Source of the DNA: Cucumis sativus
Taxonomy: Eukaryota > Streptophyta > Magnoliopsida > Cucurbitales > Cucurbitaceae
DNA: 64,000 nucleotides
Direction: 5' to 3'
Assembly: GCF_000004075.3 (NCBI RefSeq)
Contig: NC_026660.2
Coordinates: 18,433,837-18,497,836 of the forward strand
Position 1 is the first letter of the stretch. Each line of letters starts with the position of its first letter. The notes under the pieces were generated by a model. It was given only the letters and a program-made list of their open reading frames with translations. It made no database searches and had not been told where the DNA came from. Position numbers and translations under genes: made by a program. Of this stretch, positions 23,101 to 63,817 are shown one piece after another.

Positions 23101-24835
23101 TTATTTGATTCTTGATGGAATAAAACATGAGAGAAAAAAATTAATGAGGAATGTTGGTGTACCTAACTTATTTAGTTTGAATCAATTAGTTTTGTGTAAA
23201 GAAAAAAGGTTTGCAAATTAAATTACCAATAATGTAATAATACATTCAAAGAAGTCATCCATAGCCACATTGAAATATAATGTCTTTGTGAATTGTACCC
23301 ATATAATATTATCTCTAGCCACATGTTACAAACTTATATGCTTAAAATCATTATTTAGTCCGCCAATATGAATAAAATTACTTTAATGTAAATTTGCTAT
23401 ACGAGATATTTTCAATTCTAACAAAATAAATTAAATTATTTAAAAAATATATTAAAATTTTAGATTATATCATCCATTCATTGTTTACTATAATTATAAG
23501 ATTCAAATAAAAAATAAACTATCGACTTATTGTTGATAAAACGTTAATTCATATGATATATCTGATGTTGTAATAAAGGTCCTAAAAATGTCAAAAAGCA
23601 AAGAAAAAAAGAAGAAGAAAAGAACTACTTTTTAGAAAGTTGGAAACTCTTTTATAAATTTTGGTTTAAAATTCAAAGAAATAAAAGTAGAATGTAGTTT
23701 ACACTTTATGACAATGTAGACTTAAAGTTTATATTTGGTTTCGTGATAAATTTTATTGAAATCAAGTGTCAATTTTTATTACATAGTATTTAAATTTTAT
23801 GAATAAATTTATTTTTTAATAAGTTTACCAACCCTATACGTTTAAAATATTTGAGTATAAATATATATATTTTTAATTCACGCTCATAATTCACACCAAA
23901 ACGTGAAAAAGAAATCAAACCATGTTTTTATATTATATATATATATATTGATGCCTATTTTTTATATAGAAGTATGCCGGTATATATTTATTTCATTTAG
24001 AGGTTTCTATTTCATACACAACCGCCGACTTCAACATGTATATATGTCTATGCTATTTATGTTTAAATCATGTAATATTGATAATTTTTTTAATGTAAAC
24101 ACAAAAATCTTACCTATATTTTTCTCTCTCTCCTCTTTAATTTTTCTACTAAAATTATTTTATTAATAAAATGATTGAATGACTTGTACTTTAGTTATGT
24201 TAAAACAATGTAAATATTATTAAAATTTATTAAATATACATAAAAGGTAATAAAATGAAGCAAGAAATATTAAAGTCCTTCGTTTAATTCTTTATTTACA
24301 AAATCATTAAATGAAATTATGAATTCATGTTTATAATTTCATATTTTCAAAAGAAGTATGATTTGGGTGAATATTTTATCCTTTCATTGTAATTTTTTTA
24401 GTCTTACTTTAGCCACAATTTTGTCATTCACATAGATTGAATGTGTGTGGTCATTTTCACATTAAACAAAATAAAAATTACATTTCGTTAATTAATTTTT
24501 CATTTCCTCGTTAAAAGAAAAATGTTTTGATTCCATAACGGATATTAGTTAATGCTCTATGTTATTAGGGGCTTAGGGCTACAATGTAACTTTTCTATAT
24601 GTTATTTACACAACTAAATTTTTTTTTATCATACTTTATTCAGATATATATAGATTAGATGGTTAAGTTTGGATAGTATAAGCTTAAAATATTAAGAAAT
24701 AGAATTTAAATGGTGAAAAATGATACATTGGAAGGATGTAAATATAAAAAAGATATAAATATGTAAATGTTGAAATGATTGTTGTTAAATTAAAAATTTT
24801 ATTGTTTATTGCTATAACTAAATGGCTCATTTTCG
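20177..24835. other. Intergenic region between divergent genes
   Basis: About 4.7 kb separates the divergently transcribed beta-glucosidase and CobW-family gene. It is AT-rich and lacks exons. The only structured feature I could support is the candidate Pol III-type unit at 22547-22734, described separately. Confidence 0.65.
22547..22734 (+). ncRNA. Candidate USE/TATA-driven small RNA locus
   Basis: GTCCCACATTG at 22547-22557 matches the plant snRNA upstream sequence element (RTCCCACATCG) at 10 of 11 positions. TATAAATA follows at 22582-22589, a gap of 24 nt, the shorter spacing associated with plant Pol III snRNA-type promoters. About 75 nt downstream, 22665-22717 forms an inverted repeat (arms CACGTCTAC with GTAGACGTG, and TTGAATAT with ATATTCAA, with a 7-nt bulge). 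T8 at 22727-22734 could end a Pol III transcript. I do not recognise the RNA as U6, U3, MRP or 7SL. Similar USE-like boxes also occur in transposon LTRs, so it may be a promoter relic. Confidence 0.3.
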
Positions 24836-26024
24836 TAGCTTTCAAGTCTCACGTGCTCCACCCTCTCCTATTTCTTTCCGTTTAGCATCTCAGTTCCGCC
24901 GCTGCCGTTCTTCGGTTCGTGCTCGTACAGCATCCTATCTAACGGCTCTGCACTGATTGGTATTCTCCCAATCTCCATCTATCTCTGTCTCCTCACTCGA
25001 ATAACGAAAGAATGGAAGATTTGTATGTATTATCATGAATTTTCCAGCATCTCCCTTCTCAGTCGAAGTAATTCAATTATCTTTTAATCACAAGCACGTC
25101 CGGCGGCTATCTTTTAATTGACCGAACAACCTCAACAATATTTCTATTTTGTATATTTGTTTAACCAATGATGGTCTGAATTTACTGAATATAAAAGCCT
25201 TCCTAGTTCCTTATGCTTCATACTTGATACTCCACCCTCCATTTATTCTTCTTCTATTGCTATTATTATATTTCTATAGTTGATTGTGTCAAATTAGAGT
25301 CTGTGACTGTTTTGAATGATAGCTGGACGTGTTTCGATTGATTTTTTGTATTGAAAATGTTTATGTTTTGGTTTTGTTACTTCTGACTAATTGGAGAAGT
25401 TTTATAGCTCCATTGGTTTGGGCATGCTGTCTTTTTTCGTGTGTGTGTGTGTAAATTTCATACATCAATGAAATTTGTTTCTTATAAAAAAGATGAAAGG
25501 TTTGGATGATTTGATTTGATGATTTCTTCTGCTGAGATTGCAATTTGAAACTGTGTGTTTTGTTTGAAATGTTTATGAATGATTCGGATGCCAAATCGAT
25601 GGTGTAGTTGTCTTTCCGCTTGCTAATTAAAACAAAGTAATAAAGTGTAAGTGAACTTTCTTTTGGGCCTGAATATCGAACTCGATTGGGAAAACACCAG
25701 GACGGGCCAAAGAAACAGTTGGTTGGGATGAAATGTTAATTACTAATTCTGAGGAAGTTAATGAGGTTGGACCTTAATTATTGAAAGCCAAGGATTTTTT
25801 TTATTAAATACAACTTGCTTTTCATTTTATGGATGGAGTTCAACTCTTTGTTTTTGGTGCTGTTTTTAGGTCAGTTTTTGTTTAATCTCCCAGAAATTTT
25901 TTATGAGTGAGTGTCTAGATAGCTTATGCCTACCTTGATTAATTTCAGTCAGAAAGCAGATGTATTGAAGGTCAATTATCAAATTGAAACTACCAAACCC
26001 AAATCCACGGCTACGATTTGAAAA
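24836..26024 (+). promoter_or_regulatory. Promoter/leader of the CobW-family gene, with 5' UTR intron
   Basis: A G-box CACGTG at 24850-24855 precedes a GC-richer leader (about 24880-24958). A donor at 24960 (ATTG/GTATTC) and an acceptor TTTCAG ending at 25948 define a leader intron of about 990 nt. Exon 2 then carries the start codon at 26025. The blocks 24836-25230 and about 25759-25870 are clearly homologous to the leader of the KTI12 gene 5.5 kb downstream, including the G-box and the donor. Confidence 0.6.
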
Positions 26025-28988
26025 ATGGAAGATGAAGATCCACCACTCGCTGTTGAGATTGGCGAAACAATTACAGCTGTCCAACAACATGAAGATGATG
26101 GTGTTTCTGTTGGCGTTACAGTTATCACTGGATATCTTGGAGCTGGAAAATCCACCGTAACTTACACTCTGAAACTTTTCTCCTTACCCCCTCACTCGAT
26201 TTCTTTTTGCAACCATCAAATTTGAGCTATAGAATGATATTTCTTGTTTGGTGGAATTCAGTTGGTTAATTACGTATTGAACTCGCAACATGGCAAGAGA
26301 ATTGCTGTTATACTGAACGAATTTGGGGAGGAAATTGGAATTGAGAGGGCAATGATAAATGAAGGTGACGGTGGGGCGTTGGTTGAGGAATGGGTCGAAT
26401 TAGCAAATGGATGTATTTGTTGCACTGTTAAGCATAGCCTGGTTCAAGCCTTGGAGCAACTTGTGCAGAGAAAAGAAAGGTATTCTCTTGCTGTTATATT
26501 AGATTTCAATGGAGCTTCTGGAAAAATACGTTGATGATTTAGTCCATCTTACATGTCTCTAGGCTCGATCATATTTTGTTGGAAACTACGGGATTAGCCA
26601 ATCCTGCTCCACTTGCTTCTGTACTTTGGCTGGACGATCAATTGGAATCATCGATCAAGCTTGATTCAATTATTACAGTCAGTTCTTAGTTCTTGTTCCT
26701 TCACGGTTTGAGTTAGTTTCCCCAAGTTTACTTTGAAATACGTATTATAGTTTGGAAATGTTTGTGAATTACATGCTATAGTTCTTAAGTTTAAGAATGT
26801 GTCATATTTGATGTTTGATTGAAATTAAGATAGCCAATGAAGCTTAAGTTTCCCCTTGTTCTAAGGTTAAATTTATGTGTTGGCTTTCGTTTCTATGTTG
26901 TTATTTAATTCGATTTTGTCTGTCCATGAGTGGATGCATGGTGTAGTAAATACTTGAATACTTCAAACTTTGTTTTAAATTCTTTTTCTAGTGATCTAAA
27001 GGTTTCACCCAATAATAACTCCTTATGTTCATTTGGATGAATACATGCAAGTAGGTCGTGGATGCTAAAAATCTTCATTTTCAATTGAATGAGCACCGTA
27101 GTTCATCATCCTTTCCGGAAGCATTTCATCAAATTGTGTTTGCGGTAATATTCTTATTCTTAGTTCTTTTATGGTCTCTGCAAGTTTGCAATCTACCATT
27201 AATTATGTCAAGCAACTGCTGGGATCTTCATTATTTATCATTTTTCATTCCATTATTACTTAGTATTTTTGTTTGTTTTATTTCTGTCTCTCTTGCTATA
27301 TGGTTTGTTTTATTTCTCTCTTTTGCTATATGGTTTGATTTATTTCTCTCTTTTGCTATATGGTTTTCTCAATAATTGTCCAATGTGCACGCCTAAGAAG
27401 TTGTGAATCTGTTATCCATCATAGGATACTATTATTCTTAACAAGGTCGACCTGGTCTCTTCAGATCGTGGTGATGGTGCATTGGAGGACCTGGAGTATG
27501 AAATACGTAACATTAATTCTCTTGCCAAAATCATTCACTCTGTTCGGTGTCAAGTAGACCTGTCTCTCATACTAGACTGCAATTCCTATAATGCTGCTGT
27601 TAGTCATGAACTTAACTTTAACCCCTAGCTCATTTTCTATTTTCGTATCTGTCCTCTTTATCTGATACTATTCAGTTTTTCCCCATTTAGAATACAGCTC
27701 ATTTAGAAGCATTATTGAAAGAAAGTCGTTCTTTATCTACTCAAGATCTTCATGATACTGGTGTTCGAACCTTGTGCATTAGTGAAGACGACAAAGTTGA
27801 CCTTGATAAGGTAGTTTCATGTATTTCCGTTAAAGATTGTGTGGTTCCATCTTATTTTAAATTGCTTAGGCATTTAAGAATTTCACGACCTGGAGTGTAG
27901 CTACATCCATGCTGATTTATGTTTTAGCCAAAGATCCATTGAAGTAATAATATTCTGAACTACTAATATATCTTTCCATTGGCTTGCTGATCTATTTAAC
28001 GAAGTATTTAACTTTCGAAGTGATTATATAAATCGCTCATCTTCACTATGAGCATGATGATTGAAGTAGGCACAATTCGTACAAGCAATATAAGTTACTG
28101 CCTTGGAAATTCATGATATTTCTCATTAATCTGCATTTCATATCCGATCTTCGTGATGGTGCTATTCTCATGCCTACCTTATTTTCCAATAGGTTCATTC
28201 TTGGCTTGAGGAGATACTTTGGGAGAAAAAAGGTGGCATGGATGTGTATCGTTGCAAAGGAGTTTTAAGCATAAAAAATTCTGATCAGCTACATACTTTG
28301 CAGGTAGATCATGTGCTTAATCCTATAGTTTTTGCTGTTGGAAAATCACTCCAAACAGGCTTCTTCTTTAACCATCGTCCTAATTTCCCATCCTTTGTTA
28401 ATCCGATTTCCATGCATTCCTTTTGGGTTTTGAACCCAAATGAAAAGGTTGAGTTATTGCGACGATACTTCCTAACAAGAACACTCAAGAACAACACAGA
28501 AAACTCAAGAAGACTCAAATATAAAAACATATGGAAATATACTGTAATATATACTATAAGAGAAGTAGCAAGATAACCTTGCCTTCCAAGTGGGCTAGTC
28601 CAAAGGAAATCTCACAAAATTCCTCACTCTTTGCTCCTTATCTCATTCCCTTTATTTATAAGCCCTAACAATACCAACATTCTACTACTAATCCTACTAT
28701 ATCTCTAACTAGGGAGCTCTTTTTCATGTTAATGACTGATTTTGATTGGTGGCTGACAGGCAGTTCGGGAATTATACGAGATCGTTCCTACACGGCAATG
28801 GAACAATGGAGAAAGTCAGACGAACAAGATAGTGTTCATAGGTAAAAGACATACAAAAATATCCACGCCCACGAACTCTTACAATGTGTTTATTGTTGAA
28901 ACTTACACATTGTCCATAATATGCAGGTCGTAATCTGAACGAGGATGTTCTCAGCAAAACCTTTAGAGAATGTGCTTCTATCTCCTAA
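26025..28988 (+). CDS. CobW/G3E-family GTPase (COG0523), ZNG1-like
   Basis: A metal-chaperone-type P-loop GTPase; characterised relatives deliver zinc to client enzymes, but the plant client is not known from sequence. Exons are 26025-26156, 26262-26479, 26563-26677, 27055-27144, 27425-27598, 27691-27810, 28193-28303, 28760-28841 and 28927-28988, all GT-AG and in phase, for 1104 nt and 367 residues. Seen directly: Walker A GYLGAGKST (residues 36-44), the metal-binding CICC motif (95-98) in ELANGCICCTVK, LLETTGLANPAP (Walker B-type glutamate E124), the guanine-specificity motif NKVD (191-194), and a C-terminal CobW_C-like region RCKGVLSIKNSDQLHTLQ ending in CASIS. No organelle transit peptide is evident; the acidic N-terminus suggests a cytosolic protein. 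It is most like the Arabidopsis At1g26520 type, consistent with the neighbours. The reading frame is intact. Confidence 0.93.
27270..27366 (+). repeat. About 30-bp tandem repeat in intron 4 of the GTPase gene
   Basis: The phrase CTCTCTTTTGCTATATGG, followed by TTTGnTTTATTT, is repeated about three times with a period near 30 bp. The first copy is slightly diverged. It lies in the intron after the exon ending at 27144. Confidence 0.8.
28440..28740 (-). mobile_element. Possible LTR-like insertion in intron 7 of the GTPase gene
   Basis: On the minus strand this segment reads GGGCTTATAAATAAAGGG (TATA-like, near 28660) and then a moderately GC-richer, stop-filled leader, resembling the U3/R part of a plant LTR. 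It makes up most of the intron. No clear TG/CA ends or target-site duplication were found, so it could be another repeat class. Confidence 0.3.
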
Positions 28989-30309
28989 ATTTTGTTGCTT
29001 TACTATTTGTTCGACTACATAGGCAAACAAGGAAGAGCATATGCGTAGGTGAAATGGTTTTGTATGATTTCGAAGTCCTTTTTTTGTATGTTAACTTGGA
29101 TAAGTGTTTCCTAAATTAACTGTCTTTCGGTCTTGTTAGAGGTGTTCTAGAAAGGTTTTTGATGGAAAGATTTGTGAACGAAGGTACCATTGGATGTTTA
29201 TTTTTCTAAATGAAAGTTCTTTTGAAAGTTAACATTGCAATAAAAATATCAAAAATTAAATTAGTTAAATTAAAAAAAAAAAAACAAGAATAACCATTAA
29301 ATTATAAGATTCCCAAATTATAGTTTTAAAAATTGATTGTTCGTTCTCTTGCGATTCGTGCTTCTTCCATTTGTGAGGGTGGTCGCTATTGGCTTTCTTC
29401 TCTTCTTGTTAGGAATTAATGAAGTTTATTTTCTTCAAAAAAAAAAGAAAGAAAGAAAGTTAACTTACAACGTGTACATTGAAGACAAAGAAGCACATGT
29501 TTTGAATTTCCTAACTTAAATTATGAAAGATCAAAATAATATTGCAATAAAACAAAAGTTTAGATTATATATTGATACTCTATATTTTAAAATGCCTCAT
29601 ATTTAAATTATGAAATATATTTTAAAAAGTGCTGTTTTTTTAGGAGTTCTTATGGATTAAAAAAAAAAAAAAATTCTTATGGATTTAAAAAAATTTAAAA
29701 TTATTTGCAAAATATAGAGAAAAAAAGAAATTTTTTTTTGACAAAATATTTACCCATCCTGAAACAAAATTTACACTTGATTAAATATTTAAAATATTTT
29801 TTTAAAGGTTCTATTTTTATGATTTATAAAAAAGAAAAAAGTATAAAATTTATTAAAAAAAATCAGATAGATTTTGCTCTATTTTACAAAGGAAATTTTT
29901 AAAAATGGAAGAATTTGCAAATTATCTAGGTCTATAGCAAAATTTTAATCCAACTACAAAATGGATAACTAAAATTTTAACCCGAATTCAAACTATTCAT
30001 TTTTTTTTTCTACATGTAAATAGTTTTCATTTTCTTCTTTCATGTAAATTCTGGTTTTGTTTTATAAATAGTTTGGATTTTTTTGATACGTTTAAAAATG
30101 TCATTCTTTTAATAATTCATTTGTTTGTATTTACTCCTTAAAAAAATAAAAATATACTTTGAACGGCTAAAATATTGGTTATCATATTGATTAAAATTCT
30201 GTCATGAATTGTATATATTTTGTAAATTCTTCTTAGTTTTTTTTTGAGTCGTTCCATTTTTTAAAATAAAATGAAAATAAGTAAAATTGAGCCCTAAACA
30301 TATGTATGT
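28989..30309. other. 3' flank of the GTPase gene, then intergenic
   Basis: The first about 250 bases are probably 3' UTR. The rest is AT-rich with poly-A/T tracts and an AAAG-type microsatellite near 29440. No exon was recognised. Confidence 0.6.
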
Positions 30310-31268
30310 ATCTTCCTCTCACTTTCAAGTCTCACGTGCTTCACCTTCCGTCTTTAGCAGCTCAGCTCCGCCGCTGCCACTTTCCAGTTCGTTGTCGCCG
30401 CCGTTCTTCCGCTCGTGCCAGCGCCGCATCCCTCCTAACGGATCTTCACTGATTTTCCACTCGGTTGTTGCTACTGGTATTATCCCAATCTCCATCTATA
30501 TCTATCTCTTCACTTCAAAAACATAAATTAGGGCTTTTCTAATGAAAAAATGGAATATTTGTTTTTGTTTTTGTTTTTCTTAATAACCATACCCGAATAG
30601 CAACGAAAATAGAAGAAACCCACCTTTTGATTTGCTGCATATGTCTGTCAATTGAGGCGTCCATATATCTCTTTGGTCTCTGCTGAAAATTTCCTTGCTT
30701 CTGCACCAATGAATTTTCCAGCTTCTCCCTCGTCAGTTGAAGTAATCCAATTCTCTTTTAATTCCAATGAGTGTTTTATTTTAATTGACTTCCTCAACCG
30801 TATTTATTTTTGTATATTTGTTGAAGCAGTACGCTGACCAGCGGTACTTTAAATTTACTGAAAATAAGAGCCTTCTCTATTCTTTGTTCTTCATGTTCTT
30901 GATTTAAAATATGTATATTTGGGGTAAAATATACATATTTTTGGAAGTGGAGGGCTCAAGGGACCTAAAGATTCTGCTTTTATATATGGTATGGATTTTT
31001 TTAGGATTCTCTTAATGTTTTTGGAGAGAAAACAATATCAATGATTCTATGAAATTTACAAATTGAGTAATGGTATGTTGAAAATTATAATTGTTGTAAG
31101 CAGAGACGTGTGAAGTGTGTACAACAATATGAACCTAGAAAAGGTTTCTTGTGAATCAAAGCTTCAGGAGATCTACCATTAAATTTTTGTTGTTGTTCCT
31201 TTAATTGCATATAATCCGATAGAAAGAAAGAAAAAGTTGTTGATGTTGAGCCGGAGTGCCTGTTTTGC

Positions 31269-31600
31269 CTACTTGAATGAATGGTCCTTGAACAGGCTGA
31301 GCTGCCAGTATTTTATGTTGAATGAGAATGGGAGTGTCAAAATCCAACAATTAAAGGCTGTTTGAAAGTGAACCCAAATCCTGTTTGAAAATTGGCAGTG
31401 TATGAAAAGATGGTCTTGAGTCTCATGATCAGAGCTGCATAAACAGCAGCAATTTGGGGAGAGACTGATCCAGGGGTGCTTTATTTGAATTGTGTTCCTT
31501 GTGTGGTTTCATTTTAGAATTTTAGGCTGATTTCCCATAAAAAGAATTTTAAGTGTCTTTTGAAAGAACCCCTTTCTGAATCAGTTTGTATTGTCTGGAT
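31269..31600 (-). mobile_element. LINE remnant (zf-RVT region)
   Basis: Read on the minus strand, 31475-31269 translates as PWISLSPNCCCLCSSDHE and then a TQDHLFIHC-type stretch and FSNRIW. This is the cysteine/histidine zinc-binding module at the C-terminus of plant non-LTR retrotransposon reverse transcriptases (zf-RVT). A KFFLWEIS-like piece sits just upstream around 31540. The frame is broken between the two parts and no RT core remains, so this is a dead fragment within the KTI12 leader intron. Confidence 0.6.
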
Positions 31601-31894
31601 GATTGCTTTCTGACATAGTTGATAGGCCACTGACTTTTTTCCCAATTCCCAGTTGACGTACTTACAGGGTGTAATGATTTCTATTAACTATTATTTAGCT
31701 TACCGACTGTTTTCATGACGAGAAATGATTTGTTTCCCAGTGGGCACAGTAGGTGTCTAATTGAGAGAGAGAGTGCTGAGTGTGTAATTTTCTGCTATTG
31801 ATAAGGGAGATTGAGTTACTTGTTTCTGAATATGAGAAGTTTTGAGTTTATGGCCTTAACGCTTGACTTCTTGCTTTTAAAATCAAGATTTTGA

Positions 31895-32200
31895 TAGAAC
31901 ACTGATACAATGTTTCTATTTTATTGATACCTTCAACAGAATTACAATATAAAAGAAGTAAAATAATAAGTGAAAAAAGAACCCTAATCGTCTGCCCTTC
32001 CTCTCTTTCAAGGAATAGAGAAATTTTGCAGCCTTATTTCTTCACCAAATTCTTCATACCCTTCTTCCCTCCCCAACTTCCTATTTATAACCAACCAACT
32101 ACCAACAAATCTAATTACACTTTTACCCCTGTCCTATACTAATCTAGGTATCTAACAGATTTCCTCTATCCAAAACTTCTACCTCCATCCCTTATTTCGC
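31895..32200 (-). mobile_element. LTR fragment with primer-binding-site-like end
   Basis: On the minus strand the order is TTATAAATAGGAAG (TATA box, near 32085), a leader, AATAAAATAG (polyadenylation-like, near 31920), GAAACA, and then TTGTATCAGTG, which resembles a diverged initiator-Met primer-binding site. That is the order of a Copia-type LTR end. No internal region follows, so it is a truncated remnant. Confidence 0.4.
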
Positions 32201-32554
32201 CTGAAGTCTGTTCAATCAGCTGAACTTCAGATTACAAAAATTAGCCAAGGGCCACAAAGAATTTGTAGAATGGTGACAAATCCATTTAAATTCCGGTTTG
32301 GTGCAGCCACCACCCACACCAATCTTTTATACTGTTCTTTGGATCTGAAAGAGTAATCTGAACCTCTTTCTGTCATCTCTTGCCACTCTATATTCTGAAT
32401 CTAGGTAGCTTCTCTGGCTTTTGTGTATTTCTTCACTTTGAAATGTTCATAGTAAATAATTATTGTGAGGAAATGAACGTGGCCAGACCTTAATTATTGA
32501 AAGCCAAGAATTGTTTGACTAAATACAACTAGCTCTTCATTTAAAGGAGTTCAA

Positions 32555-32749
32555 TCATTAAGAGGTAAAAAGGAAGACATAGTTTCAATAACTAACTAAG
32601 AGGTCATGTATTCAATTCATAGTAGCCGCCTAGGAATTAATTTCCTACAAGTTTTCTTTCACCAAAATGTTGTTGGGTCAGACGAGTTGTCTCGTGAGAT
32701 TAGTCGAGTTGTGCGTAAGCTAGTCCAGACACTCACAGATGTAATGGAT
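32555..32749 (+). mobile_element. tRNA-derived SINE
   Basis: About 195 bp flanked by near-identical 9-bp repeats GGAGTTCAA (32546-32554) and GGAGTTCGA (32750-32758). It has a B-box-like GTATTCAATTCAT at 32609-32621. The body is typical of a widespread dicot SINE, with GCCGCCTAGGAATTAATTTCC, then TTGTCTCGTGAGATTAGTCG and a CCAGACACTCACAGAT end. The homologous leader of the upstream GTPase gene lacks it and has a single GGAGTTCAACTC site, so the insertion post-dates the leader duplication. Confidence 0.75.
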
Positions 32750-33037
32750 GGAGTTCGACTCTTTGCTTTTGGGTGCTGTTATTTTACTCATAGCTATGTT
32801 TCTGTCTTTCTTATTGCATTTGCATCTGTAAAAAGTTTTCTTGTAGTGTGTGATATTCAATCATAATTTATTTGTGTTATTTCTCTGATCATTTCTTTTA
32901 ATGGTTCTACTTATGTTATGGAATTACTTTTTTTTAATAAAAAAGACACATATTCTTACTCGAAAAGTTATTGATGTTTGTTGTTTTTTCTTTGACTATT
33001 AACAGTTGGAACTTCTCTGCTTGGAGTTCTCCATAAA

Positions 33038-33940
33038 ATGGCGTTGGTTGTGATCTGTGGCCAGCCATGCAGTGGGAAGTCCACTGCTGCACTCTGCTTA
33101 GCTGAAGCTCTCAAGGAATCAAATGTAAAAGAAGCCATTAAGATTATCGATGAAACTTCTCTTCATTTGGATCGGAATCAGAGCTATGCCAACATGCCTG
33201 CTGAAAAAAATCTAAGAGGAGTTCTCAGATCTGAAGTTGATAGATCTGTATCTAAAGATAGCATTGTCATTGTAGACTCTTTGAACAGTATAAAGGGTTA
33301 TCGATATGAACTGTGGTGTTTGGCTCGTGGAACAGGAATCAGGTATTGTGTGCTGTACTGCGACGTGGAAGAAACCAATTGTAGGAAGTGGAATGAAGAG
33401 CGTCGTGAGAAAGAAGAAGCGAGCTATGATGATAAGATATTCGAAGATCTTCTCAGAAGGTTTGAGAGGCCAAATAGTAGAAATAGATGGGACTCACCAT
33501 TGTTTGAGTTATTCCCACATAAAGATGGAATCGAGAAATCATCTCAGGTTATTCTAGATGCTGTATCATACCTGACTAAAACAGTGGACTCAAAGTCTCG
33601 TGATGTAAAAATTTTACAGCCAACAATTGCTACTCAGAGCTCTCGATTTTCGGAGGCTAACTCTCTATATGAGTTGGACAAAGCGACGCAAGAGGTGGTT
33701 AATGCTATTGTAGAAGCCCAATCTCTGGGAGGGCCTCTGAATAGTATCTCTCTGGGTCAGGAATTACCAACCATTGACATTTCAAGGTCGGTTGGACTAC
33801 CGGAGCTTCGAAGACTACGGAGAACTTTCATCAAACTAACAGGGCAAACTAGTTTAAGCGGACGACCACCACCCTCTGATGCCGAGAGTGCCAAGAGGAT
33901 GTTTGTTGACTACCTGAATAGGGAACTGGGGACTTCTTGA
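33038..33940 (+). CDS. KTI12: KTI12/DRL1, Elongator-associated P-loop protein
   Basis: KTI12 (DRL1/ELO4 in Arabidopsis) is a regulator of the Elongator complex, which makes wobble-uridine tRNA modifications; loss of the Arabidopsis gene alters leaf and root development. The coding region is one exon of 300 residues, the usual family length. The N-terminus MALVVICGQPCSGKST carries the Walker A motif (residues 8-16). SIVIVDSLNSIKGYRYELWC is the Walker B region, and RYCVLYCDVE follows. The family-typical DSPLFEL and C-terminal GLPELRRLRRTFIKL and AKRMFVDYLNREL segments are present. No signal or transit peptide is seen. The ATG at 33038 is the first after the leader-intron acceptor. Its upstream region is shared with the GTPase gene, which suggests similar expression. 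Confidence 0.95.
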   Translation: MALVVICGQPCSGKSTAALCLAEALKESNVKEAIKIIDETSLHLDRNQSYANMPAEKNLRGVLRSEVDRSVSKDSIVIVDSLNSIKGYRYELWCLARGTGIRYCVLYCDVEETNCRKWNEERREKEEASYDDKIFEDLLRRFERPNSRNRWDSPLFELFPHKDGIEKSSQVILDAVSYLTKTVDSKSRDVKILQPTIATQSSRFSEANSLYELDKATQEVVNAIVEAQSLGGPLNSISLGQELPTIDISRSVGLPELRRLRRTFIKLTGQTSLSGRPPPSDAESAKRMFVDYLNRELGTS

Positions 33941-34444
33941 AAGTTGAAACTAGATTAACCTGAATGATAAGCTGTATACTTGTAGCATATGAACTACCAA
34001 ACTTTACAAAGCAAGAGGTAACAGAGATATCACTCTTCTTTCTGGCAACTTTGCCATCAATTATTTAAGCTTTGTTGTTATCGATGTTTTTTCTCTTAGT
34101 AATCATAATATCTATGTCCTCGCTGTTACAGAACTATAGTCATATTCTGACATGAGATTTTCAGCTCATACGGTTCCTTGAGGGTCGTAAATAAATCTAA
34201 GGAGCACATCAGGATTATTTGTAGATTATGCTTTGGAAAATTACGGTCCTTATATATTCACACACACATGATATATACATATACATAGTTAATGAGTTAA
34301 TTCAAAGAGAAAATGAGTGAATCTTTGGTTTCTTCTTTAAAACGAGTTCCAAGATTGTGTAATTGTTCTATTAATGAGTTCATACTTTGTTCATGCTTTT
34401 GATGTGAATGAGTTTCTTTCTTTGATAATGCATTTCATGGGTCT
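33941..34444. other. KTI12 3' UTR and flank
   Basis: AT-rich 3' flank containing the likely UTR and polyadenylation region. No exon was seen. Confidence 0.6.
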
Positions 34445-47156: not shown

Positions 47157-50100
47157 ATGCTGTCTCCAACAATGGCTTCGACTTGGGGCTCGGCTCCATT
47201 GCACATTCAATGGAAGAAACCGAAGCGTCCGGGTGTTATCCTTAACGAGTTACCTTCATTTCTTCCCAAAGAAGTCTACAACATCAAAGACCAATCTGCT
47301 CGAAACCTCGCTTCAAGGATTCAGAGGCTACCCGTAAGTTCACACCTGGAAAATCTCGTACCATTTCGTCGTTTGCTAGTTGTTTTAACAATCATTTAAT
47401 GATTATTTCACATGGGTTGGGGAAAACTGTAATAGAAACTCTCAATTCGAGGAAGTTCAAGCTATGTTTTTTGTGGAATTCTACCTGTTAATGTGACTTT
47501 TGAATCGAAGGGGTTTTAAGCTAAGAATTGTTCTTGCTCTGCATGTAGGTCAGCTTCTCGGATTTTTGTATTATGAGTAGTTGCGTTAAGCCGTCAATAC
47601 AGAACAAAGACTGTCCTGTGGTTCTTCTCCATGGCTTTGACAGGTTTCTTTCACTAGTTAGAAATAATATTCGTGTAAAATAAATACAACGCTGTTTGTT
47701 GGTTCTGTTATTATTGTTATTAGTTTATCTTTTCCTCGTTCATCACATCTTATTGTTCAGCTCCTGTTTAGAATGGAGATACACATATCCATTGCTTGAG
47801 GAAGCTGGTTTAGAAACTTGGGCTGTCGACATTCTTGGCTGGGGCTTCTCTGATTTAGGTTTGTCTAATTGCTTTGTGTTCCTCTATTCATTGATCGATA
47901 AACCATTTTTTCTCTCTAATTTTCGTAGTTGCATGTGATAGAAAGACTCCCACCATGTGATGTGACTTCTAAACGTGTTCATTTGTATCAGGTAATGAAA
48001 ACCCTCCTGTTTAGATTGTTTTCCTGTATGTATTTGGGGCAAATTTCTCTTCAATTCCAATTCTGTTTCCTTCCTGTATGATCTTAATATGCTGACACTT
48101 GCTTCATTGTTATAACTTATAGGCTTGTTTTATTTTTTCATCATTGCTATAAGCTTTTGCATTAATCATTATTTTCCTGTTCTCTTTAAGTTTTTTTTTT
48201 TTTTTCCTGAATAATTCTTTATTATCAGTCACACTTATATCTTGTCCAGTTATGTTGAAACTAATTAAGTTTTCCCTTATGCTGACTATAGCTTTGGAAA
48301 TCTTATATTAAAAAGCCAATGGTAATTGTTGGACCAAGCCTTGGTGCTGCTGTTGCTATTGATTTTGCTGTCAATTATCCAGAAGCTGTATGTATCTACC
48401 AGCTGGAATTTATGACTACAAATTTGAAGTTATATCCTCATGTAAAGTCATTCCAGAGAGTCTTCCGTCCAATATAACGAGATTATTTCAGGTCGATAGG
48501 CTTGTGTTGATTGATGCAAGTGTATATGCAGAAGGTACAGGAAACTTAGCTACCTTACCAAGATCGATTGCCTATGCTGGGGTGAGACTTTGCTTACTTC
48601 TGTGAACATTACATCAAGTGTGCCAATGCTAAGCACATTTGATGAGAGATTGATTTTATGCAATTACAATTTACAAAACCACAAAATTTACTTCATCTGT
48701 ACATCCTTTCCCATCCATTTTACCATACCATTATTGCATCACCACATGCTTTCATGATAATTCTTCTGCTAAAATCTTCTGGGAGAGAATCGTTCTACTA
48801 ATTTTTTATCTACAAATTTGATTTTTTGCAAAGAAATTGACAGTTTCTAGGGGGGAAGATTTTTACACTTGTTTCTTTTCTGAAAAATCGTCTTGGAGAC
48901 ACTTCTTATGTTTGCTGATTTCTATGTAAGTCATAAGTTTTTTAAACTTTTTTATCAGGTATTTTTATTGAAGAGCATTCCTTTGCGCGTATATGTGAAT
49001 GTTTTGACCTTCACTGGTATACCATTTAGTACCAGCCTGGATTGGGCCAATGTAAGTTTTCCCCGACATTAAGGTGCATGTTTATCATGTAGTTGTTGAC
49101 TTGATGTGTATTTTGTGATATTGGAAGTTTTGCTTGACATGAAGATAAAATGTCATGTCCATAACCAATTGACTTACATCCTGCTTCGACTGTTCTCCTT
49201 CTACTCTACTTATATTTTATTAGATTGGCCGCCTGCATTGTTTATTACCTTGGTGGGAGATGCGACTGTTAGTTTTATGTTAAGTGGGGGATATAAAGTC
49301 AGCAGCCAGATTGAAAAGGTTAGCACAACTCTTTTGCAATATGGTTGTTGGAAAATGCAAAATGTATCTTGTTTTTTGAATTAGAAAATTGCAAATATAT
49401 TGGTGATCATAAGGAAAAGTTTCCATTCCTCGTCAAGTTATGTAGGCGTTTTCATCAAGGGTTGTTGGAATGTTTTTTTGTTCTAAGGTCATTTTCATAT
49501 TGTTCATTCGACAATTATCATATCGACATTTGAGAATCATTAGGTACTTCTGAGAGTTACGTGCATTTTGGTTCAACAGGTGAAGCAGAAAACGCTTATT
49601 ATATGGGGTGAGGATGATCAAATCATCAGCTACAAGCTTGGAGTGGTTAGTGTTGTAATTTAGAATTCAGAAACGTATATGTCTTATTCTCATTGAGTCA
49701 AAGCAATGTTACATATTTATATAGAGAATAAACTAAACCCTAGAGACTAAGTAAAATTACAATAAAGGACATATGTATATATATATATATATCATAACAC
49801 TCCCCCTCAAGCTGGAGCAAATATGTCGATCATGCCCAGCTTGTTGCACAGATAGCTTATCCTTGTTCCATTTAAAGCTTTAGTTAGAATATCTCCCAAT
49901 TGTTCTCCGGTCTTCACATATCCTGTGGACACCAACCCATCTTGGATTTTCTCACGAATGAAGTGACAATCCACCTCAATATGTTTAGTTCTTTCATGAA
50001 ATACTGGATTAGATGCAATATGAAGTGCAGCTTGATTATCACACCATAATTTAGCTGGCACGGTAATACTGAAGCCTATCTCAGATAATAGTTGGTGAAT

Positions 50101-53100
50101 CCATACTATTTCACACACAGATTGTGCCATAGCTCTATATTCTGACTCAGCACTCGAACGAGAAACAACATTTTGTTTCTTACTCTTCCATGAAACTAAG
50201 TTTCCACCTACAAAGACACAATATCCAGAAGTCGATCTCCTATCCTCACGAGACCCCGCCCAATCAGCATCAGAAAAACATTCAACTCTCGTATGTCCAT
50301 GATCTTTGTATAGGATCCCACGTCCAGGAGCAGCTTTTAGATAACACAAAATCTGCTCTACTGCAGCCCAATGATCCACTGTAGGGGAAGACATGAATTG
50401 ACTTACAACACTTACAGAATATGCAATGTCTGGTCGAGTCACTGTTAAGTAGTTCAACTTCCCAACTAATCTCCTATATCTCTCAGGATCTTTACATAAT
50501 TCTCCTTCTTTAACAAGTTGCTGATTTGGCATCATTGGAGTGCCACTTGGTTTGGCGCCTAATTTTCCTGTTTCAGACAACAAATCAAGTACATATTTTC
50601 GTTGAGACAAATAAATACCTTTCTTGCTTCTCATCACTTCAATGCCCAAAAAATATTTCAATTGGCCCAAATCTTTTGTATAAAACTGACCCTGAAGAAA
50701 AGTTTTGAGAGACGAAATACCCAATACATCATTTCCAGTAATAACAATATCATCAACATATACAACTAGTAGAACTATACCCTTCTCAGATCGGCGATAG
50801 AAAACTGAATGATCAGATGTACTCTTCTTCATACCAAAGCATACAAGGGCTTGACTAAACTTACCAAACCACGCACGAGGACTCTGTTTCAAACCATACA
50901 GAGATTTTCGAAGGCGACATACTTTATCACTCTCCCCCTGAGCAACAAACCCTGGTGGTTGTTCCATATAAACTTCCTCTTGAAGATCACCGTGAAGAAA
51001 AGCATTCTTAATGTCAAGTTGATGCAACGACCATTTATTGGTAGCAGCCATGGAAAGAAATAGGCGAATGGAAGTTAACTTGGCAACCGGAGAGAATGTA
51101 TCTGAATAATCAGTGCCATAGATTTGAGCATAACCTTTGGCAACAAGGCGAGCCTTTAAACGAGCCACTGTTCCATCAGGATTCATCTTGACAGCAAACA
51201 CCCATTTACAACCAATGGCCTTCTTTCCTGCAGGACGAGATACCAAATCCCAAGTACCATTATCATCTAAAGCAGTCATCTCCTCAATCATTGCATTTTG
51301 CCAGCCAGGATGAGACAAAGCTTCATGAACAGAGTTAGGAATAGATGTGGACTCAAGAGACGTAATAAACGCATATGTGGAGGGAGATAACTGGTGATAG
51401 GAAATAAAGGAAGAAACGGGGTAAGTACACTTGCGTTTACCTTTGCGAAGAGCAATGGGAAGATCATCACTTGGCGCTGGATCACATGAAGAAGGAAGCA
51501 TTGATGGAGGACATGAGTCTGAAGGTTGTGGTGGAGGTCGTCGGGAGTAGACTTGAGAAATCAACGGGCGGGAAGGAGACACATCAGTAGACAAGGATGG
51601 TGTGGGAGAGGTAACCTCATATATAAAAAGATTGTCATCCTCCCCCTGACACAAACTCGATGGTGATGAAGTAAAGGGTGTATCTTCAAAAAAGACAACA
51701 TCAGGTGAAACCAGATACCTTTTAAGGGTAGGACAATAACAACGATAACCCTTTTGAACACGTGAATAACCCAAGAAGATACACTTCAAGGATTTGGGAT
51801 CTAACTTAGTATGATGAGGACGAACGTCACGAACAAAACAGACACAACCAAATATCTTAGGAGCAATAGGAAACAAATGCTTGGTAGGAAAAAGAACACG
51901 ACAGGGAATCTCACCATTAAGAACAGAGGAAGGCATTCTATTAATCAAAAAACAAGCTGTAGAGACAGCATCAACCCAAAAGATTTTTGAAACATGCATT
52001 TGAAACGATAAAGCACGGGCAGTTTCAAGTAAATGCCTATTTTTCCGCTCTGCAACACCATTTTGAGATGGAGTGTCAGCACAGGAAGATTGATGAATAA
52101 TGCCATTTTCACACAAGTAAGAGCCAAGAGAATGAGAAAAATATTCACCCGCATTATCAGTACGCAAAGTTTTGATAGAGACATTAAATTGGTTTTTTAT
52201 TTCAGTATGAAAGGCACAAAAATGAGATAATAACTCAGAACGATTTTTCATTAAATATAACCAAGTTAGACGAGAATGATCGTCAACAAAAGTAACAAAA
52301 TAACGAAAGCCTGTTTGAGATACAACTGGACACGGACCCCAAATATCAGAATGAACTAACTCAAATGGAGCAATTGCTCGTTTATCGACTCGAGGACTCG
52401 AACTAAGACGATGAAATTTCGCAAATTGACACGAATCACAATTTAAAGAGGACAAAGACCTAAATTCTGGATAAAGTTTCTTCAACACAAACAAAGATGG
52501 ATGACCTAAACGACAATGGACTTCAAAAGGAGAGGGAACGACAGGACACGCCACAGCTTGCGATACTTGATGATCAAAGAAATAAAGGCCTCCTGACTCA
52601 TATCCTCTACCAATAATCTTCTTCGTCACACGATCCTGAAACAAGCAATAACCAGAAAAGAACATGACAACACAATTTAGGTCATGAGTAAGTTGACTAG
52701 TAGAAATTAAATTAAAGGATAAGTTAGGCAAATGTAACACAGAAGAGAGAGAAAAGGATGGGGTAAGGTGAATAGTGCCAGAGCCAAGAACAGAAGATGT
52801 GGAGCCATCGGCCAATGTAACAGATGGGAAAGGGGCAGGGGACAACGGTCTAGAAAATAGGTGAGAATTACCTGTCATATGAGCTGTGGCACCAGAGTCT
52901 ATGACCCATTTGGTAGATGATGTAAGAAGACACTTTATATTACCTGGGGCAACAGTGGATGCAATCGGAGTAGAGGAAGATGACGCTTGTAATGACTCTT
53001 GGTAATTCTGAAACTTAGCAAACTCATCTGCAGAAATAGTAACTGACGCCTCTGGTATATCGCATGTGGAGGCTATCTGAGCATGTTGAGATCGTTGACT

Positions 53101-54865
53101 ATTCTTATATAGCAATTTCCGACAATCACGTTTCATATGGCCTGGCTTACGACAGTAGTTACAAACAATCTCTACAGACTCTGGTTTTCGATGATCAGTA
53201 CTATTCCTCTGAGGTGCCCGAGGGTTATTGTTCTTGCTAAAGAGAGCACTACTGGGTTGAGGAATAGACACACTAGTCGGAGAGCTTTCAATGCGAAGGA
53301 CTCGAGTGAAGGCATCATCTAATGATGGAATCTTGGAGTCAGAGAGAATCTGTGTCTTTGCCATTCCAAATTCAGGTAAGAGTCCATTCAGAAAAATCAT
53401 AACAGCCATCTTCTCTCGTTGAACTTGTTGAACTTTAACATCAGGACTAAAAGGTAACAACAAGCCAAGCTCGGCAATGATCTTCTTAAGCCGCATAAAG
53501 TAGCTGGTGACAGACTCAGCTTTCTGTTCCGCACGAAAAAATTGCATACAAACTTCAAACATTCTATGCACTTGCTCTTTACCTGAGTATAGAAAATCCA
53601 AAAATTCCAAAAGTTCTTTAACAGACTCACAGTGATCAACCAATCCAATTATCTCACTCTCAATTGAATTCTTGATCTGAAGATATAAACGGGCATCATC
53701 ACGAAGCCAATCCTTCTTCTGCTTTGCATCTTTTGGGGATCTTCAGTCATATGATCATCCATATCAGTACTTCTCAAATAAAATAAAATTGTCCGACGCC
53801 AATCGTAATAATTGGATCCATTTAACTTATGTTCTGTGATCTTAGAGGCCAAGGGAATAACGTTGGAGACTACCAAATTTTTTATGTCGGCCATATTGAA
53901 GTCACACGTTGATTGTAGTCCACTCGAACAAAGAGAAAATCAATCCAAACAGCTGCAAAATTGGAAAAAGAGACAAAACCAATCGTGTAACCTTCGGTTT
54001 TCGTCAAACCCGAATGTTATTTGATAGACCCAATGGTACAGACTGGTAGGAAACAATGGTTCGAGATAAGCCAGAAGACAGAAGACAAATCGGACTTCTC
54101 ACGCGCTCTCACGCGCCGGCGCGTGGGTGAAGGTGACGATGATTCCGGCGGCGCGTGAAGGTCACGCGCGGTGTTTTCCGGCGATCGGCGAAGACAGACT
54201 TGGGCGGACGGAGGTGGTGCTTCTTATGGTATGGGCGGTGTCGACAAATGGTCACCGGAAGGTAACCCAAACTCCAAACCTAATGGAGGTTGACAAATGG
54301 TCACCGGAAGGTAACCCAAACTCCAAACCTAATGGAGAGCTCTGATACCATGTAATTTAGAATTCAGAAACGTATATGTCTTATTCTCATTGAGTCAAAG
54401 CAATGTTACATATTTATATAGAGAATAAACTAAACCCTAGAGACTAAGTAAAATTACAATAAAGGACATATGTATATATATATATATATATCATAACAAG
54501 TGTTATTGTAATTCTGAAAAATGAGACTTGGATAGAAATTGAATTGGGTTGACAGAACAGACTGACAAACCCCTTGAAACTAAGTAATTGAAACAAAATA
54601 GAGATTGAATGTGAAATACTTTGTTGTCTTTTGTCTTTTGAATTGAAACATATATAATAATATTGTTACAAATAGAATAACTTCTCATTAGTTGAAATAT
54701 GCAATGCAGAGGTTGCACTGTGAGTTGCCAAATGCAGTTATTCGTCCAATAGCCGAATGCGGGCACCTTCCTCATGTTGAGAAGCCAAATCTTGTTGCCA
54801 AATTGATTACACAATTTGTTCATGAAGATTCCAGAAAAGAGGTTCAGTTTGTTAACAGTGAATAA
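47157..54865 (+). CDS. Alpha/beta-fold hydrolase, 10 exons, Copia in last intron
   Basis: A serine hydrolase of unknown substrate. Exons are 47157-47333, 47549-47643, 47761-47858, 47942-47991, 48292-48387, 48492-48581, 48959-49051, 49224-49318, 49580-49645 and 54710-54865, all GT-AG. The fold motifs are in order: PVVLLHGFDSS (oxyanion HG loop), DILGWGFSDL, VGPSLGAAVAIDF (nucleophile elbow, Ser156), LIIWGEDDQI (acid Asp) and CGHLPHVEKP (catalytic His), ending VQFVNSE. Exon 8 reads CLLPWWE and then shifts frame near 49255-49262 before DATVSFMLSGGYKVSSQIEK, one base short; with that base the product is 338 residues. The N-terminus (MLSPTMASTWGSAPLHIQWK) may be a weak plastid transit peptide. The last intron has grown to 5.06 kb through a Copia element inserted 8 bp from its donor. 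Confidence 0.88.
49654..49799 (-). repeat. 3' LTR of the Copia element
   Basis: 146 bp, TG...CA ends (as read on either strand). It matches the other LTR except for one fewer TA unit in the dinucleotide tract near 49772-49790. In element orientation this is the downstream LTR, next to the polypurine tract. Confidence 0.95.
49800..49810 (-). promoter_or_regulatory. Polypurine tract of the Copia element
   Basis: On the minus strand TTGAGGGGGAG immediately precedes the 3' LTR, the expected site of plus-strand DNA priming. Confidence 0.85.
49807..53894 (-). CDS. Copia gag-pol polyprotein, one frame break near the N-terminus
   Basis: The long frame (53643-49807, 1278 codons) carries, in order, the end of gag with the zinc knuckle CNYCRKPGHMKRDC, protease WVIDSGATAHMT, the gag_pre-integrase HCRLGHP motif, integrase core residues in HSDIWGP, LRTDNAGEY and GVAERKNRH, reverse transcriptase with LVVYVDDIVITG, and RNase H ending with TKHIEVDCHFIREK and LGDILTKAL. 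The Copia order (integrase before RT) is clear. The gag start MADIKNLVVSNVIPLASKIT lies in another frame from 53894; the switch occurs near 53732-53742 at a G4 run and looks like a one-base loss. Otherwise no stop codon interrupts pol, in line with a recent insertion. The broken gag means this copy is probably not autonomous as sequenced. Confidence 0.93.
54110..54125. other. Perfect GC-rich 16-bp palindrome in the Copia leader
   Basis: CACGCGCCGGCGCGTG lies between the primer-binding site and gag in a locally GC-rich leader. Retroelement leaders often hold self-complementary loops that dimerise genomic RNA. That role is inferred here. Confidence 0.5.
54243..54337. repeat. 49-bp tandem duplication in the Copia leader
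   Basis: Two adjacent, virtually identical units starting GACAAATGGTCACCGGAAGG with a period of 49 bp. It lies just downstream of the primer-binding site in element orientation. Confidence 0.9.
54339..54350 (-). promoter_or_regulatory. Primer-binding site (tRNA-iMet) of the Copia element
   Basis: On the minus strand TGGTATCAGAGC directly follows the end of the 5' LTR, the standard initiator-methionine primer site of plant Copia elements. Confidence 0.93.
54351..54498 (-). repeat. 5' LTR of the Copia element
   Basis: 148 bp, TG...CA ends. In element orientation it is the upstream LTR, with a TA-rich promoter tract just inside its start. Confidence 0.95.
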
Positions 54866-61631: not shown

Positions 61632-62131
61632 NNNNNNNNNNNNNNNNNNNNNNNNNNNNNNNNNNNNNNNNNNNNNNNNNNNNNNNNNNNNNNNNNNNNN
61701 NNNNNNNNNNNNNNNNNNNNNNNNNNNNNNNNNNNNNNNNNNNNNNNNNNNNNNNNNNNNNNNNNNNNNNNNNNNNNNNNNNNNNNNNNNNNNNNNNNNN
61801 NNNNNNNNNNNNNNNNNNNNNNNNNNNNNNNNNNNNNNNNNNNNNNNNNNNNNNNNNNNNNNNNNNNNNNNNNNNNNNNNNNNNNNNNNNNNNNNNNNNN
61901 NNNNNNNNNNNNNNNNNNNNNNNNNNNNNNNNNNNNNNNNNNNNNNNNNNNNNNNNNNNNNNNNNNNNNNNNNNNNNNNNNNNNNNNNNNNNNNNNNNNN
62001 NNNNNNNNNNNNNNNNNNNNNNNNNNNNNNNNNNNNNNNNNNNNNNNNNNNNNNNNNNNNNNNNNNNNNNNNNNNNNNNNNNNNNNNNNNNNNNNNNNNN
62101 NNNNNNNNNNNNNNNNNNNNNNNNNNNNNNN
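61632..62131. other. Assembly gap of exactly 500 N
   Basis: A run of 500 unknown bases, most likely a placeholder of fixed size. Frames that appear to run through it are meaningless. Confidence 1.
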
Positions 62132-62802: not shown

Positions 62803-63036
62803 TGGGCCTATAAATAGACTCATACCCTACTCACTTATACCTCATCCAACGCTTATTCCTCATCCAATCGGCAGAAAGGTATAGAAAACTTTTCTTCTCC
62901 CTTTCTCTTTTTTTTTTTTTTCTTTTTTTTTGTGTGTGTGTTGTTTTTTTATTCTGTTTTGTTTTTTTTTTTTTTTGTTTGTTTTTTTTTGTGTTGTTTT
63001 GTTTTTGTTTTTGTTTTTTTTTTTTTTTTTTTGCAG
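62803..63036 (+). promoter_or_regulatory. Promoter and leader-intron-like segment
   Basis: TGGGCC (site II-type element) at 62803-62808 overlaps CTATAAATAG (TATA) at 62808-62817. A short leader with a repeated CCTCATCCAA follows, then a donor-like GCAGAAAG/GTATAG (GT at 62879). A long T-rich tract ends in an acceptor-like TTGCAG (to 63036), immediately before the tandem array. This is the order of a plant gene start with a leader intron. No coding sequence follows inside the window, so the gene, if any, lies to the right. Confidence 0.4.
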
Positions 63037-63817
63037 GAATGACTTTGTCGAGCTTCTTCTAGGGACGATCGGGCTTTTGCCGTCAGATCTATCGCCCTAG
63101 TTGGAGAGATCGACTCTGTCATCGTCGGGCTTCGATCTTCGTTTGCAGAAATGACTTTGTTGAGCTTCTTCTAGGGACGATCGGGCTTTTGCCGTCAGAT
63201 CTATTGCCCTAGTTGGAGAGATCGACTCTGTCATCGTCGGGCTTCAATTTTCGTTTGCAGAAATGACTTTGTTGAGCTTCTTCTAGGGACGATCGGGCTT
63301 TTGCCGTCAGATCTATTGCCCTAGTTGGAGAGATCGACTCTGTCATCGTCGGGCTTCAATTTTCGTTTGCAGAAATGACTTTGTTGAGCTTCTTCTAGGG
63401 ACGATCGGGCTTTTGCCGTCAGATCTATCGCCCTAGTTGGAGAGATCGACTCTGTCATCGTCGGGCTTCAATCTTCGTTTGCAGAAATGACTTTGTTGAG
63501 CTTCTTCTAGGGACGATCGGGCTTTTGCCGTCAGATCTATCGCCCTAGTTAGGAGAGATCGACTCTGTCATCGTCGGGCTTCGATCTTCGTTTGCAGAAA
63601 TGACTTTGTTGAGCTTCTTCTAGGGACGATCGGGCTTTTGCCGTCAGATCTATCGCCCTAGTAGGAGAGATCGACTCTGTCATCGTCGGGCTTCAATCTT
63701 CGTTTGCATAAATGACTTTGTTGAGCTTCTTCTAGGGACGATCGGGCTTTTGCCGTCAGATCTATCGCCCTAGTAGGAGAGATCGACTCTGTCATCGTCG
63801 GGCTTCGATCTTCGTTA
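63037..63817 (+). repeat. Seven-copy 112-bp tandem repeat
   Basis: Units begin at the ATGACTTTG phrase at 63039, 63151, 63263, 63375, 63487, 63600 and 63712. The period is 112 bp, once 113 because of an extra A. Each unit is GC-richer than its surroundings, contains GGGACGATCGGGC and GTCAGATCTATCGCCC, and ends in TTTGCAG before the next ATG (TTTGCAT in one). Only a 7-codon frame (MTLLSFF) follows each ATG, and 112 is not a multiple of three, so the array is not coding. Units 2 and 3 share private variants, showing recent local duplication. Confidence 0.95.

Follow-up and report, generated by a model that had tools for sequence, protein, structure and literature searches.

The CobW and KTI12 genes and their leaders

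The 64,000-nucleotide stretch of the Cucumis sativus genome analyzed here (NCBI RefSeq assembly GCF_000004075.3, contig NC_026660.2, positions 18,433,837 to 18,497,836 of the forward strand; hereafter the window) carries two neighboring genes on the plus strand, a CobW/COG0523-type GTPase gene and a KTI12 gene, each preceded by a leader that resembles the other. These leaders, designated copy A (CobW gene) and copy B (KTI12 gene), belong to a leader family dispersed over the genome, which is the subject of this work. The CobW gene (26025-28988) was described with a hand-made model of 9 exons and 367 amino acids (Pfam cobW, E 1e−54; CobW_C, E 3.8e−19), and the KTI12 coding sequence (33038-33940) is a single exon of 300 amino acids (Pfam KTI12, E 3.5e−83). 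An earlier note on this DNA had called the coding regions unrelated, and so they are: they fall into distinct Pfam families, no DNA match was found between the downstream regions, and the best protein match had an E-value of 0.63.

The leaders were compared by a self-comparison of the window and then by a direct pairwise comparison of both regions. The homology consists of five colinear plus-strand blocks, extending over 24839-25867 on the CobW side and 30322-32783 on the KTI12 side, with identities of 68-90% and E-values from 3e−22 to 1e−9 in the direct comparison: 24839-24920 with 30322-30392 (74% identity), 24900-25005 with 30396-30522 (68%), 25035-25221 with 30709-30894 (71%), 25737-25833 with 32453-32548 (79%), and 25829-25867 with 32744-32783 (90%). 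The top block reached 93.3 bits; when the KTI12 leader was dinucleotide-shuffled 500 times, no best score exceeded 34.6 bits. The proposal that the two upstream regions are homologous in the same order and orientation is borne out by these alignments, and the shared items listed in its support were located in both copies, i.e., the G-box CACGTG within TTTCAAGTCTCACGTGCT (24850-24855 in A, 30333-30338 in B), a leader of the CTCCGCCGCTGCC type, a donor before TCCCAATCTCC, and then the blocks GAATTTTCCAGC, ACCTTAATTATTGAAAGCCA, and GGTGCTGTT.

In copy A, the promoter-proximal stretch and the noncoding first exon of the CobW gene occupy 24839-24959, are homologous with B, and end at the donor TTG/GTATTC; the conserved part of intron 1 follows at 24960-25867, with the matches to B at 25035-25221 and 25737-25867, the latter marking the end of the homology. 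Repeat pieces that recur elsewhere in the genome are present at ~25261-25586, and the likely acceptor, chosen by eye, is a TTTCAG ending at 25948. In copy B, the G-box (30333-30338) and the noncoding first exon of KTI12 (30322-30476) end at the donor CTG/GTATTA, the conserved part of intron 1 spans 30477-32783 with its blocks matching A, and the likely acceptor (also by eye) is an AACAG ending at 33005. The splicing of both first exons is predicted from sequence. Two repeats were inserted into the intron of B, a dispersed one at ~31885-32166 and a SINE-like (short interspersed nuclear element) repeat with many genome copies at ~32561-32745, and they account in part for the greater length of this copy. 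The SINE-like repeat, which splits the conserved 3′ block of the KTI12 leader intron, presumably resembles the Au SINE. An Rfam scan of positions 24000-34000 with E-values up to 1 gave no match, so no described RNA family accounts for the conserved blocks.

A dispersed leader family

The family was first seen when the first 591 bases of the copy B leader were used as a genome query and gave matches on other chromosomes, and DNA searches with single members recovered further members across chromosomes. Twenty-two loci, spread over all seven large contigs (~227 Mb), carry the ATG-free first exon, the donor CTG/GTATTCTCCCAATCTCCATCT, and the 5′ intron words; this number is a lower bound, as the genome searches score best candidates only and more members may exist. 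At the seven places read first, the order of features is a GC-richer stretch like CGTTTCAGCAGCTCAG..CGCCGCCGCC..GCTCGTGCCGCCGCAGCATCC, then CACTGATTTTC, the donor CTG/GTATTCTCCCAATCTCCATCTAT, and the intron words; words of both exon and intron are shared in alignments of the members. Fourteen loci were read as sequence (A, B, C7, C4, C3, C6a, C6b, C5, C1a, C1b, C1c, L059, L060, and L062), and eight were taken from search rows alone (C1:23127676, C6:243725, C3:21619342, C2:22179684, C3:33082442, C6:9587643, C6:5743408, and C2:6612495). Some of these eight match in the exon part or the intron part only, and C6:5743408 (E 6e−9) and C2:6612495 (E 3e−7) are each represented by one search row. Excluded from the count are three short hits to a CTTCTTC-type run at the start of one query (positions 2-45).

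A word search with the 24-mer at the donor, allowing up to 3 mismatches, gave 23 hits, and the reversed word used as a control gave none. The assembly copies of the two window leaders account for two of these hits, and the other 21 places comprise 13 supported ones, one marginal (L061), one unsupported (L058), and six unread places that were left out of the 22-locus count. An intron 29-mer searched with the same tolerance matched 3 loci with 4 hits (C6a, C5, and B, the last together with its assembly copy; control 0), and the intron words are therefore less conserved than the donor.

Membership was further examined with a profile (R1) built from 10 members. Copy B had the top score among the model sequences (156 bits at 30337-30563), copy A, likewise part of the model, scored 94 bits at 24861-25020, and C6b, a short and weaker member also included in the model, scored 72.5 bits. 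All six loci tested outside the model matched, with 131, 114, 99, 63, 26, and 19 bits. As five of the six had been picked for holding the donor word, this word was masked in a retest, in which four loci stayed clear (63.5, 51.4, 31.3, and 18.8 bits, compared to at most 7.1 bits in 500 shuffles per locus), L061 was marginal (6.2 bits vs. its own shuffle maximum of 5.5), and L058 had no signal left. L058 was consequently removed from the family count and L061 was kept out of it. Dinucleotide shuffles of the unmasked loci (200 per locus) gave a maximum of 8.2 bits vs. at least 24.5 bits for the real sequences, and in 39 other sources (294 kb, the window’s other genes included) no score above 6.5 bits came from anything but a member or the assembly copy of one.

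These controls bear on the idea that housekeeping promoters and leaders became alike by convergence under shared constraints (telo-box, G-box, pyrimidine-rich CCG leader, and leader intron). The leaders are indeed similar in composition, L058 has the donor word and shares nothing else, and upstream promoter words are common, with CACGTG in 4/10 members, AAACCCT in 5/10, and a G-box or telo-box word in 7/10. Convergence is opposed, however, by the non-repetitive words shared in a fixed order from the exon deep into the intron, by the 23 hits of the 24-mer against none for its control, by the low scores of the shuffles, and by the failure of the window’s other genes to match; we consider it very improbable. 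The frequency of CACGTG also qualifies the weight that had been given to the G-box: it is present in A and B, as stated, but in a minority of the family.

The predicted exon differs from the intron in ways that recur among the members. No ATG occurs in the 130 nucleotides before the donor in any of 14 sequences (L058-L061 and 10 from the first set, with C6b and L062 excluded), compared to 12.8 expected and to 0 of 2000 shuffles with a count as low, while on the intron side of the same sequences 45 were counted and 51.4 expected. GC content is 0.47-0.60 before the donor and 0.29-0.39 after it, and this change in composition together with the depletion of ATG makes the element resemble a spliced 5′ leader. 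The GT of the donor is conserved, as judged by eye, wherever a member read as sequence could be aligned across it, with the exception of L062 (C6b is unaligned there), and a plausible acceptor just before the ATG is present in C1c and likewise in C4. Within the intron, the block at 25035-25090 in A and 30709-30765 in B, which starts with ATGAATTTTCCAGC, contains a similar short reading frame in both copies (MNFPASP.SVEVIQ.SFN, by eye), and an ATG..TTTTCC word like that of this block is also found in C7, C5, and C1b.

Over the exon and donor, pairwise identity among 15 aligned sequences (L058 and L061 included) is 42-66%, and the family copies are old. One near-identical pair was seen (C5:9595859 and C3:21619081, 95% identical), which may be a piece of a larger duplication. 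Two members lie head to head at L041:1510-1724 (minus strand) and L041:3085-3238 (plus strand), ~1.3 kb apart and pointing outwards, one of them towards a WD40 gene.

Genes behind the copies and history of the pair

The sequence downstream of the leader was read at 10 loci, and at six of them a same-strand gene recognized by Pfam stands behind the copy, with approximate distances from donor to ATG of 1.1 kb for CobW, 2.6 kb for KTI12, 1.4 kb for UTP14, 0.8 kb for a GYF-domain gene (GYF_2), 2.4 kb for COX17, and 0.6 kb for a WD40 protein gene. We take the GYF gene to be HTATSF1-like. The WD40 gene, at C6a, is presumably WDR43/UTP5-like; a sequence search of the PDB did not confirm this, giving generic WD40 chains among the 60 matches listed. 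A tRNA-Lys (TTT) gene is situated at L038:2033-2105, ~130 bases upstream of the UTP14 leader.

Within the family, A and B are closest to each other. They form a pair in a tree of 15 sequences (FastTree support 0.912), their summed bits over high-scoring segment pairs amount to 343 vs. 173 for the next pair among 10 sequences compared, and the 3′ intron block (25737-25867) was found in these two and in none of the 8 other members checked; the best other match to it was a 17-base one in C1c (E 0.003). The sister relation and a 3′ block of their own make a local duplication plausible, i.e., an old one on top of an older dispersal. In contrast, the leader belongs to a 22-locus family, so either copy in the window could have come from elsewhere. 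The flanks upstream and downstream of the two copies are unmatched apart from one 13-base word (E 0.07), and no piece of CobW was found beside KTI12 or of KTI12 beside CobW. The simplest history would be an old dispersal followed by a local duplication, which produced sister leaders of which the CobW copy changed more; a hint that copy A is the more derived one comes from the R1 scores, although both copies are in the model and rates differ.

The earlier note had explained the pair by a tandem duplication that put both genes under one ancestral promoter. A local tandem duplication alone, with a promoter and leader special to the CobW/KTI12 pair, would agree with the colinear blocks in the same orientation, the neighboring position of the genes, and the sister relation with its private 3′ block. 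The exon and intron words of the pair are, however, also present at 20 other loci, with all seven large contigs represented, which refutes this reading as a full account. What remains of it is the final event at this locus; that a local duplication could be the whole story we regard as improbable. Similarly, the idea of one ancestral promoter for this pair retains the local homology on which it was built, whereas the leader is not private to the two genes and their copies are the local tip of a dispersed family.

The assembly of the region calls for caution. The window lies within a 75.2-kb repeat of 99.83% identity (52 mismatches and 57 gaps) at G000:C6:18420288-18571198. A 500-N gap (window 61632-62131) is all that separates its two copies, the first stopping exactly at the gap and the second starting immediately after it. 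The duplication is probably false, the result of overlapping contig ends left unmerged; gene copy numbers are therefore suspect here, and the additional KTI12 and CobW copies are likely spurious; a search of the genome with the KTI12 protein matched the window open reading frame (ORF) and the 75-kb assembly copy, and nothing more. Such an artefact, however, copies the whole locus. Within either of its copies, A and B are separated by 5.5 kb, and their blocks show 10-32% divergence. Given this divergence, the assembly is excluded as the source of their resemblance, an explanation to which we attach practically no weight. Elsewhere in the window, the minus strand carries a long retroelement ORF, copia-like by eye, at 49810-53742, and ~112-bp units form a tandem array at 63024-63816, near the window end.

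A proposed promoter-leader cassette and its known counterparts

The leaders are probably copies of an old dispersed cassette that were put before unrelated genes by copying at the DNA level and later duplicated locally. What was observed comprises the number of copies and their homology, their sense orientation ahead of unrelated genes, the depletion of ATG, the conservation of the donor, and the sister relation, whereas promoter activity, splicing, mobility, the order of events, and an advantage for the host are inferred. The cassette would comprise a promoter-proximal stretch, a GC-richer and ATG-free untranslated first exon, a conserved donor, and a 5′ intron part several hundred bases long, and either a non-autonomous transposon or recombination would have copied it upstream of unrelated genes. 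Transcription would start inside the cassette, and splicing would remove a mixed-origin intron and join the cassette exon to an acceptor immediately ahead of the start codon of the host gene, which would gain a housekeeping-type promoter, a clean leader, and possibly a first intron that enhances expression. At the locus described here, one copy would later have been duplicated beside another gene, giving CobW and KTI12 their sister leaders. The cassette is likely used as a shared promoter, and the family suggests that ready-made gene starters have been copied around and adopted by unrelated genes.

Several observations weigh against this explanation. At 3 of the 10 loci (C5, C1b, and C1c) the same-strand ORF behind the leader bears no family name, as no convincing family was found in Pfam or NCBIfam for C1b and C1c, nor any in Pfam for C5 (best E 0.29), and at C1a no recognized gene was detected in the 2.8 kb read downstream. 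The leaders were linked to their genes by position, and the exons were spliced by eye. In L062, CTATTC replaces GTATTC, which leaves no GT at the donor, and this leader may be either unused or spliced elsewhere. Neither CACGTG nor AAACCCT occurs in 3/10 members, for one of which only 83 bases were examined, and exon 1 is pyrimidine- and CCG-rich, as are many plant leaders. When copy A was used as a genome query, B and repeats were the only matches and no dispersed members were retrieved; the whole B leader gave, besides itself and its assembly copy, only repeats among the best 40 of 1021 candidates, a failure to reveal the family that arose because the query was swamped by a repeat. To these are added the loss of signal at L058 and the marginal score of L061 once the donor word was masked. 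Finally, no terminal inverted repeats were detected: the longest exact arms were 10 bp, no better than in 100 shuffles, for 10/10 members, in a search restricted to exact arms within at most 450 bases before the donor and 1000 after it (2600 for B).

This last result concerns mainly one form of the cassette explanation, in which a non-autonomous DNA transposon of the PIF/Harbinger or Mutator type, equipped with a promoter and a splice donor, spread the leaders. Dispersed copies, a conserved donor, and homology running from promoter to intron parallel the case of rice OsRpl6-1 discussed below, and the head-to-head members ~1.3 kb apart would also be compatible with such an element. On the other hand, the exact inverted repeats of the 10 members are no better than chance, the copy number found is low, and the sole near-identical pair may lie in a larger duplication. 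The transposon is thus a candidate mover only, although age could have erased its ends, and we rate it as possible, at somewhat less than an even chance.

By what route unrelated genes acquire common regulation is an open question, for which one cassette found many times, in several cases before unrelated essential-type genes, would be a natural experiment. Joint spread of a promoter with its leader exon and leader intron would become directly testable, and local promoter ‘duplications’ may turn out to be the visible tip of dispersed families. A broader conjecture, which we advance tentatively and do not hold to be the likelier outcome, is that a mobile housekeeping promoter (promoter, ATG-free exon, donor, and enhancing intron) was dispersed in an ancestral cucurbit genome and adopted by at least two dozen growth-related genes (ribosome biogenesis, tRNA modification, copper and metal chaperones, and perhaps RNA splicing), tying them into one transcriptional programme.

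Among the titles listed in the literature search, none described a shared leader family in cucumber, and only one was a close case, the 5′ untranslated region (5′-UTR) of rice OsRpl6-1, gained via a PIF/Harbinger-like element (Kubo et al. 2008, PMC2631504). Its authors state that no other such example was known to them (PMC2631504). As in the cucumber family, dispersed copies in rice extend from upstream of the cDNA through the 5′-UTR exon and its conserved GT donor into the intron, and the element was proposed to have supplied an unrelated gene with its leader and possibly with cis-elements (PMC2631504). The rice element concerns one gene and has 15-bp inverted repeats, putative 3-bp target-site duplications, and splicing proven by cDNA (PMC2631504), whereas in cucumber six unrelated genes identified by Pfam lie behind copies, no inverted repeats were found, and splicing is predicted. 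The cucumber copies would extend the OsRpl6-1 case from one gene to a family. The same article attributes the acquisition of the 5′-UTR of the rice mitochondrial rpl27 gene to recombination (PMC2631504). The resemblance to rpl27 lies in a gene that obtains its 5′ region from elsewhere through DNA rearrangement, and the difference in that rpl27 is a single acquisition with no dispersed cassette family. The original rpl27 paper reportedly has the phrase ‘promoter shuffling’ in its title. Transposon-derived promoters of plants and chimeric transcripts of genes and transposons offer a further parallel, as mobile DNA supplies first exons or promoters there as well. The known plant examples of transposon-derived promoters are mostly recent or condition-specific insertions. 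The cucumber cassette differs from them in consisting of old copies that stand before housekeeping-type genes.

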